From: Accumulibacter sp.
Lineage (GTDB): Bacteria > Pseudomonadota > Gammaproteobacteria > Burkholderiales > Rhodocyclaceae
Direction of reading: 5' to 3'
NCBI GenBank assembly: GCA_020049495.1
Contig: JAIFKU010000088.1
Location: 1 to 64,000 of the forward strand
DNA length: 64,000 nucleotides
Both the position numbers and the translations under genes were made by a program. Below, in pieces: positions 57,377 to 60,995 of the stretch (position 1 is its first letter; every line of letters begins with the position of its first letter). Below the pieces are notes generated by a model that saw nothing but the letters and a program-made list of their open reading frames with translations, made no database searches and was not told where the DNA came from.

Positions 57377-58036
57377 CTATTGATACAGCCCCGGAAACTG
57401 TTTGCGCAAGTTTTCGAGTTTGGGCATGTCGTGGTAAACGATGTAGGGCTGATCAGGATGCAATGCCAGATAGTTCTGGTGATACGCTTCCGCGGGGTAG
57501 AACTCCTGCAGCGGGACCACCTGTGTCACGATCGGCCGGGGAAAGCTGCGCGCATCGGTAAGCTGCTTGATATAGCCCTGGCTCATCTTCTGTTGCTCGC
57601 TGTCGGTGAAAAAGATTGCCGAGCGATACTGGGTGCCGACATCCGGGCCCTGGCGGTTGAGCTGGGTCGGATCATGCGCCACACTGAAGAAGACCTGCAG
57701 GAGTTGCTGGTAACTGACCTGCGCCGGATTGAATTTGACGCGTACGGCTTCGGCGTGTCCGGTCGTGCCACTGGTGACTTTTTCATATGTAGCGGTGGCT
57801 GCCTTGCCGCCGGCATACCCGGACTCGACCTCGGCGACGCCCTTGACGTGCTTGAACACGGCATCGACGCCCCAGAAACAGCCTCCGGCGAAAACCGCGG
57901 TCTGGGTGCCTGTTCCCGTTGTCGTTGGCTTTCCGGGGGAGGCAGCCCCGGCGTTCAGGCACACAGCGAGTGCAATGGCAGCGAATGCCGCTTGAGTCCT
58001 GCTGATCGAAGCAGCGGAAGTTTTTTGTTCACTCAT
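57377..58036 (-). CDS. msrA: Peptide-methionine (S)-S-oxide reductase with predicted signal peptide
   Basis: AVFAGGCFWGVDAVFKHVKGVAEVESGYAGG; GTTGHAEAVRVKFNP; hydrophobic N-terminus RTQAAFAAIALAVCLNAGAA. Confidence 0.95.
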   Translation of the reverse strand: MSEQKTSAASISRTQAAFAAIALAVCLNAGAASPGKPTTTGTGTQTAVFAGGCFWGVDAVFKHVKGVAEVESGYAGGKAATATYEKVTSGTTGHAEAVRVKFNPAQVSYQQLLQVFFSVAHDPTQLNRQGPDVGTQYRSAIFFTDSEQQKMSQGYIKQLTDARSFPRPIVTQVVPLQEFYPAEAYHQNYLALHPDQPYIVYHDMPKLENLRKQFPGLYQ

Positions 58037-58066: not shown

Positions 58067-58798
58067 TTAAAAGAGTGTTGTCGCATTGATCCAGGAATCC
58101 GGCAGCAGATCGACCACTCGGGCTTCGACCCACTTGTCGCCGCCAGTCAGTATGGCGATTCCGGTTACGAGGATCACGACGCCAAAGGCCTTCTTGATCG
58201 CGTCGATGCGCGCCAGTACCCAGCCGCGTGCGCGGGAAAACCCGCTGCGCGAAGCATAGGCCACGGCAACCAGTGGAATTGCAGCACCGATGCCGAACAG
58301 TCCGAGAATCAGCGCGCCGCGCGAGGCGCCGCCTTCGCTGGCCACCAGCGTCAGCGCCGAGGCCAGCAGCGGACCCGAGCAGGGGCTCCAGACCAGCCCG
58401 AGCACGCCGCCGAGCAGAAACGCACCGCCCAGCGAACCGCCATCGAGGCGCGAGGAAGCGGCATTGGCCGACGAGGCAATCGGCAGCATCCATTCGGAAA
58501 AACGCCGGTTGAGCAGCGGAACCAGCATGACCAGGCCAAAAACGATCAGCAGCAGCGCGCCAAATATGCGCACATTGTCCGAATCGATTCCCAGCGCCGG
58601 CCCCAGCGCGCCGATGACCAGACCGATCAGGGCAAACGAAACCGCCATCCCCGAGCCCATGGCCAGCGGCGCCAGACGGTTGCCCTGCACCGCCCCGCCC
58701 AGTACCAGCGGCAGGATCGGGAAAACGCAGGGCGAGAGCGTCGTCAGGCTGCCGGCCGCCAGACTGAGGCCGACATGGCTGAGGGAAAGCGCATCCAC
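58067..58798 (-). CDS. CcdA/DsbD-like membrane thiol-electron carrier
   Basis: Multi-TM with LSPCVFPILPLVLGG and VWSPCSGPLLASAL cysteine motifs. Confidence 0.9.
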   Translation of the reverse strand: MDALSLSHVGLSLAAGSLTTLSPCVFPILPLVLGGAVQGNRLAPLAMGSGMAVSFALIGLVIGALGPALGIDSDNVRIFGALLLIVFGLVMLVPLLNRRFSEWMLPIASSANAASSRLDGGSLGGAFLLGGVLGLVWSPCSGPLLASALTLVASEGGASRGALILGLFGIGAAIPLVAVAYASRSGFSRARGWVLARIDAIKKAFGVVILVTGIAILTGGDKWVEARVVDLLPDSWINATTLF

Positions 58799-58800
58799 GT

Positions 58801-59178
58801 TCAGTTGGCCGAGAGTAATGCGGCGCGCAGTTTGTCGGTGTCCGTATCACCGGCCAGGCGGGCTTTCTCGACGCTGCCGTGATAGGCGATCACGGTTGAT
58901 TGCGTACGTACGCCAAGCTGTTTCTTGAGTTCCTTTTCCTTGTCGTAGTCGACGACCAGCAAGGTGCCGGGAACGCTGGCATCGCCCTTCCATTGTTGGA
59001 ATACTTTTTCCTGCGCTCGGCAGGTCGGGCACCAGTTGGCATGAAAATGCAGCGTGACCGGCTTGCCGGCCTGCTGCTCGGCACTCAGCACCTGCGCCGA
59101 GTAGGGTTTGATGTCGAGCGCGAAGGCGGTGGCGCTGGCGGTCAGTAACAGTGCGGTGGCAATAATTCTGCTGATCAT
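58801..59178 (-). CDS. Periplasmic thioredoxin-like protein
   Basis: Signal peptide MISRIIATALLLTASATAFA; FHANWCPTCRAQEKVFQQW. Confidence 0.9.
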   Translation of the reverse strand: MISRIIATALLLTASATAFALDIKPYSAQVLSAEQQAGKPVTLHFHANWCPTCRAQEKVFQQWKGDASVPGTLLVVDYDKEKELKKQLGVRTQSTVIAYHGSVEKARLAGDTDTDKLRAALLSAN

Positions 59179-59253: not shown

Positions 59254-59511
59254 TTATTTCTTCATTTCGTCCTTGGCCATGGCGTCCTTCTTCATGCCGC
59301 CCTTGGCCATGGTGTCTTTCTTCATTCCATCCTTGGCCATGCTGTCCTTCTTCATTCCGTCTTTGGACATGTGATCCTTGGTCATGGTTTCCTTTTTCAT
59401 GCCATCCTTGCCCATCCCGTCTTTCTTCATCTCGTCCATGGCGAGAGCGGAACCTCCGGCCAGCAGCAGGGAAAGGGCGAGCAGGCTTGAGGCAAAGGTC
59501 ATTTTGTTCAT
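59254..59511 (-). CDS. Exported methionine-rich repeat peptide (MrpX-like)
   Basis: Signal peptide MNKMTFASSLLALSLLLAGGSALA followed by ~61 aa of KDGMKKDxMAKD repeats containing 13 Met. Confidence 0.85.
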   Translation of the reverse strand: MNKMTFASSLLALSLLLAGGSALAMDEMKKDGMGKDGMKKETMTKDHMSKDGMKKDSMAKDGMKKDTMAKGGMKKDAMAKDEMKK

Positions 59512-59708
59512 GGTGAGCTCCTTTGGTGGTCATTGAATGGCAGAATTGCCTTTATTCAGGGCCGACGAGCGCTTCCGCTCAACGGCCTCCGAACCAGTTG
59601 TACCCCTGGTCTTCCCAGTAGCCCCCGGGGTAGGTATCCTTTCAGTTGGCAGGTCATGTTCCGTGTGCTCTTCAGTGGCGACTGATTTCAGCGCGTTGTA
59701 CTAGGTAG

Positions 59709-59734
59709 TTCGTGCGCAAGCGGCGATCGGTTAC
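59709..59734 (-). promoter_or_regulatory. ECF SigF-type promoter for the Met-rich peptide operon
   Basis: Minus strand GTAACC-GATCGCCGCTTGCGCA (16 nt)-CGAA. Confidence 0.8.
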
Positions 59735-59768
59735 ACGCGCTGGCAAATAAACCTTTTTTCATTTGGCT

Positions 59769-59794
59769 GTAACCAAAGACCTCGATGCAACGAA
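59769..59794 (+). promoter_or_regulatory. ECF SigF-type autoregulatory promoter
   Basis: Plus strand GTAACC-AAAGACCTCGATGCAA (16 nt)-CGAA. Confidence 0.78.
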
Positions 59795-60357
59795 TAACCA
59801 GAGAAGAGGGATGGCGTGCCAAAGAGGATCGCCTTCGCACGTTATTGATCGGCGGGCTCGCCGGCGACAGTCAGGACTATCAGGTCTTCCTCAAGGAATT
59901 GAGCGCGCACCTGAGAGCCTTTCTGCGCAAGCGCCTGGCGGGCTTGCCGGATGAGGTGGAGGATCTTGTGCAGGAATCACTGATTGCGGTTCATAACCAG
60001 CGCCATACCTACGACCCCGGGCAACCGCTGTCGGCATGGGTACAGGCGATTGCCAAATACAAGCTGATCGATCTTCTGCGTCGACGTGCAGCACAGGAGC
60101 TGCTGACCGATCCTTTGGACGATGAGCCCGATTTTTTCTCGACCGCCGACGCCGACGCCGCCGAAGCGCGCCGCGACCTGAACAAGCTGCTTGATGATCT
60201 GCCTGACCAGCACCGTCTTCCGATCATCTACACCCGGCTGGAGGGCTTGTCGGTGCAGGAAGCGGCAAGGATAACGGGCATGTCCGAATCGGCCATCAAG
60301 GTCGGAGTACATCGCGGTCTCAAGGTACTGGCCGCCAGGATACGAGGTAGTACATGA
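59785..60357 (+). CDS. sigF: ECF sigma factor (SigF-like); start codon doubtful
   Basis: [45 protein letters not shown] and [27 protein letters not shown]; the ORF-track ATG lies inside the predicted promoter. Confidence 0.9.
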
Positions 60358-60995
60358 AAACAGACGATCTGATCAGCATGCTGGCTACCGGCGCAAGCGC
60401 CGTGCCACCCCATGTGGCCGAGCGGCGCTACGCGACGGCCATCGGCGGCGGCGCGATCGGCGCGCTGGCCCTGGTGCTTTCCCTGCTGCGCATCCGTCCG
60501 GATCTTGCCGAAGCGGCCCTGCTGCCGATGTTCTGGCTAAAAATCGGATTTGTCGCCAGTCTGGTGCTTGTCAGCCTGTTCGCCGCCTTGCGTTTGTCCC
60601 GGCCGGGCGCGCGGCTCGACTGGGTGCCGGCAGTGATTGCTGCCCCGGTGCTGGTGATGTGGTGCATCGCCGCGTATGTCCTGATCCAGGCGGAACCGTC
60701 GCAACGTTCCGGCCTGTTCCTCGGATCAACGTGGAGTATCTGCCCCATCCTGATCGCCCTGATTTCGCTGCCGGTGTTTGTTGCCGTAACGTGGGCGATG
60801 AAAGGACTCGCCCCCACCCGGCCGCGCTTTGCCGGATTCGCTGCCGGGCTGCTTTCCGGAGCGACCGCCGCACTGGTGTACTGCCTGCACTGCCCGGAAC
60901 TGGACGCGCCATTCATCGGTTTCTGGTACGTGCTCGGCATGTTGATCCCGGCGGGCGCCGGTGCTCTCCTCGGGCGTACGCTCCTGCGCTGGTAA
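60354..60995 (+). CDS. nrsF: DUF1109/NrsF-family membrane anti-sigma factor
   Basis: Six-TM-like protein overlapping the sigma gene by 4 nt; cysteines in WSICPI and [32 protein letters not shown]. Confidence 0.88.

Follow-up and report, generated by a model that had tools for sequence, protein, structure and literature searches.

The consensus of ECF16 promoters is tGTAACc-N16-CGAA (PMC3420878), and that of the Caulobacter SigF promoter is GTAACC-N16-CGAA; the Caulobacter SigF system responds to chromate and cadmium (PMC3511200). In Brucella melitensis, head-to-head ECF16 promoters separate bcrS-abcS from bcrXQP, which is induced by HOCl and encodes a Met-rich MXKDX peptide together with MsrQP; the bcrX promoter has been mapped by 5'-RACE (PMC8315932). 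In Azospira suillum, SigF/NrsF, the Met-rich MrpX and methionine sulfoxide reductase make up a hypochlorite scavenging cycle (cited in PMC4623255). In the EcfF regulon of Bradyrhizobium japonicum, MsrA proteins occur together with DsbD-like and thioredoxin partners, and transcription of ecfF starts 6 bp beyond the -10 element, overlapping the annotated start codon (PMC3420878).

The locus described here controls a system of this known kind, an oxidant response of the ECF16 (SigF/NrsF) type. It lies in a 64-kb window, i.e., the whole stretch of DNA analyzed, and has the following features.

57377..58036, minus strand: msrA, methionine sulfoxide reductase with an apparent signal sequence (PF01625, E 4.2e-62; TIGR00401 above cut-off)
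58067..58798, minus strand: DsbD/CcdA-type membrane electron carrier (PF02683, E 2.6e-22)
58801..59178, minus strand: thioredoxin-like periplasmic protein (PF00085, E 5e-9)
59254..59511, minus strand: mrpX, secreted Met-rich MXKDX repeat peptide of 85 aa with 15 Met (TIGR02953, 80.1 bits, cut-off 41; composition)
59585..59638, minus strand: yedY (msrP) remnant, last 18 codons, 17/18 identical to YedY of the relative L008
59709..59734, minus strand: ECF16-type promoter of the mrpX operon, exact match, -35 GTAACC at 59734-59729 and -10 CGAA at 59712-59709; divergent partner in 66/75 relatives
59769..59794, plus strand: ECF16-type promoter at the sigF 5' end, exact match, -35 GTAACC at 59769-59774 and -10 CGAA at 59791-59794; same register in relatives
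59785..59787, plus strand: sigF start codon ATG, at spacer positions 11-13 of the plus promoter, overlooked in the initial annotation
59785..60357, plus strand: sigF, ECF sigma factor of 190 aa (PF04542, PF08281; NF009188 above cut-off over residues 1-189 of 190)
60354..60995, plus strand: nrsF, six-helix anti-sigma factor (PF06532, E 6.9e-70; conserved C130 and C180)

The sigma/anti-sigma pair and the operon facing it

SigF is of the ECF type, having only regions 2 and 4. PF04542 and PF08281 are its sole domains, and region 2 covers residues 42-102. The sigF and nrsF genes overlap by ATGA, and GAGG is found upstream of the nrsF ATG at 60354. C130 of NrsF was present in 141/141 aligned relatives and C180 in 139/141; the two residues correspond to the two cysteines important in Caulobacter NrsF (PMC3511200). 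The NCBI NrsF equivalog NF042994 gave a full-length match under its cut-off (163.9 vs 300). As in the studied relatives, NrsF would retain SigF at the membrane as long as the conserved NrsF cysteines are unaffected, and the freed SigF would then activate both divergent ECF16 promoters. Two adjoining NrsF genes were seen in one genome (G537:C23:19611-20966), and likewise in another (G595:C1:3702773-3704640). Within sigF, an out-of-frame ATG at 59811, with the purine-rich GAGAAGAGGG directly before it, begins a frame of 47 codons (59811-59954, plus strand). It is common to the window and L008 and absent from the other relatives, and was taken as chance.

On the opposite side, the operon combines a secreted MXKDX peptide with a methionine sulfoxide reductase (MsrA), as MrpX-type operons do. 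The N terminus of MrpX is hydrophobic by eye, and TIGR02953 describes a pentapeptide MXKDX repeat. MsrPQ (YedYZ), present in the Azospira and Brucella operons, appears to be deleted, with 18 yedY codons left. The operon would work like the MrpX systems of Azospira and Brucella, with a different repair arm. Judging from its sequence and conservation, the minus-strand promoter would turn on mrpX-trx-dsbD-msrA, a putative periplasmic methionine-sacrifice and repair system.

The mrpX leader, about 190 nt from the minus promoter to mrpX (59512-59708), aligned to L008 as two separate segments. One, made up of the promoter with some 30 nt, matched the L008 region upstream of yedZ; the other, the remainder, matched the end of yedY plus the gap between yedY and mrpX. 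The YedY C terminus TYPGGYWEDQGYNWFGG is still readable at 59638-59585 on the minus strand. Six close relatives (L008, L012, L013, the congener L184, L185 and L186) carry intact yedZ and yedY between promoter and mrpX. From these alignments, the lineage of the window appears to have lost yedZ-yedY (MsrQP), the mrpX leader being the deletion scar; an assembly error at that spot may be an alternative source of the scar. Another molybdopterin oxidoreductase gene, whose product is 32% identical to L008 YedY, is present elsewhere in the genome. The yedZY scar is a natural example of losing the MsrPQ repair arm and keeping the MsrA-Trx-DsbD arm under the same promoter.

The divergent promoter pair

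The minus-strand site reads GTAACC-GATCGCCGCTTGCGCA-CGAA from 59734 to 59709, and the plus-strand site, pointing away from it, reads GTAACC-AAAGACCTCGATGCAA-CGAA from 59769 to 59794. Both spacers are 16 nt long. A T directly precedes GTAACC at each site, so that both conform to tGTAACc-N16-CGAA of ECF16. The initial annotation had reported two divergent exact sites here and likened them to the Caulobacter SigF consensus. Their sequence and coordinates proved exact, and the likeness agrees with the published Caulobacter SigF and ECF16 consensus (PMC3511200, PMC3420878, PMC8315932). Transcription from the minus promoter is expected to start at about 59703.

The window had no exact match apart from these two sites. 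In dinucleotide shuffles the mean was 0.05, and 0/100 reached two exact matches; an opposite-strand pair within 150 bp was obtained in 0/300 local shuffles. With one mismatch allowed, the window had 4 matches vs 2.57 by chance, which is no excess. The case is therefore built on the pair of exact sites, on how they are arranged and on their being conserved. In the assembly scanned (3.46 Mb, 85% complete), there were 7 exact matches vs 8 for a reversed control pattern, and this lack of a genome-wide excess speaks for a chance match of the pair. However, the position and orientation of the sites, their cross-family conservation and the adjoining cognate sigma factor oppose that explanation, as do the shuffles. 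A chance origin is extremely improbable, and we rejected it on the basis of the shuffles and the conservation. The five exact matches outside the locus were all within open reading frames, and the assembly held no further intergenic exact site. The exact-consensus regulon thus consists of these two promoters, and a larger one was rejected. The single regulon proposed in the initial annotation holds in this minimal sense and not beyond it.

Conservation was examined at loci around NrsF homologues, taken both from named genomes and from samples at the family, order and phylum level. Because the resulting 75 non-redundant sigF promoters were selected for the forward motif, the set is a measure of the divergent partner and not of the forward motif itself. 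Of these 75 relatives, 66 had one or more divergent GTAAC-N17-CGAA partners. The proposed link between the sigma/anti-sigma genes and the Met-rich operon is supported, as is a common promoter type on both sides. The divergent targets were YedZY/MrpX/Msr operons in the closer relatives of the window. In Pseudomonas- and Variovorax-type loci they were DUF2282/DUF692/DUF2063-like operons, resembling those of Caulobacter; these names were assigned by eye from the translations.

Other arrangements were also seen. In two loci (L040 and L041), a tandem of two divergent ECF16 promoters, spaced by about 120 bp, faces away from sigF. In a more distant SigF/NrsF group (31-41% identity; L103-L105 and L143-L154), most loci carry a divergent GTAAC-N17-CGAA on the target side, and none has a forward match to this pattern before sigF. 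A second architecture, of the Paraburkholderia/Herbaspirillum type (L043, L044, L050, L053, L056, L062, L065, L066 and L067), places the ECF16 promoter 150-280 nt further upstream, and its sigF has an N-terminal extension with the start codon after the promoter.

The sigF start codon and the sign of the feedback

The ATG at 59785 is the only plausible start of sigF, the TAA within GTAACC closing the frame upstream. A mis-called start is the obvious doubt, and the start was therefore tested by register, frame, coding constraint and alternative starts. In register, ATG or GTG occupied exactly the same spacer place in 52/75 frame-matched sigF promoters (10 clusters at 75% spacer identity), but among the divergent promoters that belong to these sigma factors in only 1/79 (46/63 vs 0/68 in a first pass). 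The near absence of the codon from the divergent promoters led us to reject it as an element of the promoter consensus. A class-wide scan for GTAACC-N10-ATG-N3-CGAA gave scattered matches in 17/274 genomes, barely over control, so the register is informative only beside sigF. Three loci (L130, L140 and L142) have an ATG within the spacer in other registers. In frame, the distance from promoter to sigma region 2 had eight distinct values among the beta/gamma loci (44, 89, 92, 95, 98, 101, 104 and 107), all in one frame; it was not bound to one frame at alphaproteobacterial loci, where the start codon lies about 13-19 nt past the -10 element, or at distant-promoter loci.

Coding constraint was assessed in sequences in which codon 10 cannot serve as a start, namely the window and six relatives. 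Codons 5-14 showed 74 synonymous vs 71 nonsynonymous differences in frame, and the ratios in the wrong frames (codons 6-14) were 3:121 and 15:117. As for alternative starts, no in-frame ATG, GTG or TTG occurs from the -10 element to codon 40 in five relatives (L008, L012, L024, L036 and L094). From these comparisons, we conclude that translation of sigF in the lineage of the window most probably starts within the promoter, at ATG 59785. A ribosome-binding site within the spacer has no clear support: RRRG at spacer positions 1-4 was commoner on the sigF side (29/52 vs 2/79), but anti-SD pairing in the spacer was no better than in shuffled spacers.

Since coding constraint on codons 1-4 could hold part of the overlapping sequence, the plus site might be an ancestral relic held by the sigF frame and unused in vivo, with the minus site alone active. 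This is quite unlikely: the -35 GTAACC has been retained despite being outside the reading frame, CGAA at -10 never varies though other Arg codons would serve, and both Caulobacter and B. japonicum have an active site at the equivalent place.

With the 6-bp offset of B. japonicum, transcription from the plus promoter is expected to start at about 59800-59802 (near 59801). This is past ATG 59785, and the plus-promoter message should therefore lack the sigF start codon. For that reason, the "compact autoregulatory switch" of the initial annotation is unproven and was not supported as stated, the plus promoter enclosing the start codon. The plus promoter would instead raise NrsF and not full-length SigF, giving negative feedback; nrsF could be translated from this message, given the GAGG upstream of its ATG, and SigF would be supplied by a separate upstream transcript. 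We regard this nrsF-only negative feedback as the simplest and most likely reading, at least as likely as the autoregulatory one, at just under even confidence. In Caulobacter, sigF expression depends on SigF only in part (PMC3511200), which would agree with a second source of SigF without proving one. A second ECF16 site upstream for a full sigF message was not found, the best upstream scores equaling those of shuffled sequence, which speaks for negative feedback. Against it, the window has no recognizable sigma70-like promoter upstream of sigF. In relatives, sigma70-like boxes upstream were only in slight excess over shuffles, and TAGAAT/TAAAAT boxes were clear only in some loci, e.g., in Cupriavidus and Paraburkholderia. 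The spacer result on anti-SD pairing also counts against negative feedback, as do the long untranslated stretch ahead of nrsF, which could invite termination, and the chance that TTG 59845 starts a shortened SigF.

Positive autoregulation would result if the plus promoter drives sigF and the induced message is translated from a downstream codon (TTG 59845 or a non-standard one), with ATG 59785 serving a basal transcript only. This is how EcfF of B. japonicum was read, a downstream codon being adopted after the mapped start was found to overlap the annotated ATG (PMC3420878). An NTG codon stands some 17 nt beyond the -10 element in many relatives, loci lacking the spacer ATG use a GTG or ATG at about that distance, and a start at TTG 59845 would retain sigma region 2. 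Against this, coding constraint acts on codons 5-14 in the lineage of the window itself, the five relatives named above offer no canonical start before codon 40, codon 10 of the window is TGG, and TTG 59845 is not conserved. We consider positive autoregulation a real but rather doubtful possibility. The best overall explanation is an oxidant-responsive ECF16 control region whose plus promoter spans the sigF start codon and most likely raises NrsF; we put it at about even confidence.

Relation to described systems

A divergent ECF16 control region is already known, and the window adds one more example. The value of the locus is in the start-codon overlap, the part worth testing. We propose, tentatively and with somewhat less than even confidence, that the sigF start codon is built into the SigF promoter in numerous beta- and gammaproteobacteria, activation yielding an anti-sigma message but not a sigma message. 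If true, the stress switch would limit itself, reversing the sign of the positive autoregulation usually assumed for ECF operons, and its promoter and start codon would occupy the same bases. If the overlap holds, the rule that a sigma factor with its own promoter means positive autoregulation would be wrong for a sizeable ECF16 group.

Brucella has a like arrangement, with exact head-to-head ECF16 promoters between a sigma/anti-sigma pair and an MXKDX peptide operon. In Brucella, however, msrQP follows bcrX, whereas the window has Trx-DsbD-MsrA and a yedY remnant only; the printed bcrS spacer, unlike that of the window, contains no ATG. Caulobacter crescentus sigF-nrsF shares the -35 and -10 elements and their spacing, the two critical NrsF cysteines and a promoter ahead of sigF, but its targets are DUF2282/DUF692/DUF2063 operons and a YedY (PMC3511200). 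The sigF-nrsF/yedYZ/mrpX locus of Azospira suillum (cited in PMC4623255) likewise combines SigF/NrsF with a Met-rich MrpX and a methionine sulfoxide reductase, and has the yedYZ apparently lost from the operon of the window. Bradyrhizobium japonicum ecfF-osrA resembles the window in its ECF16 type and in its MsrA, DsbD-like and thioredoxin proteins, and its mapped transcription start overlaps the annotated ecfF start codon; a downstream start codon is available there, whereas none is conserved in the lineage of the window.
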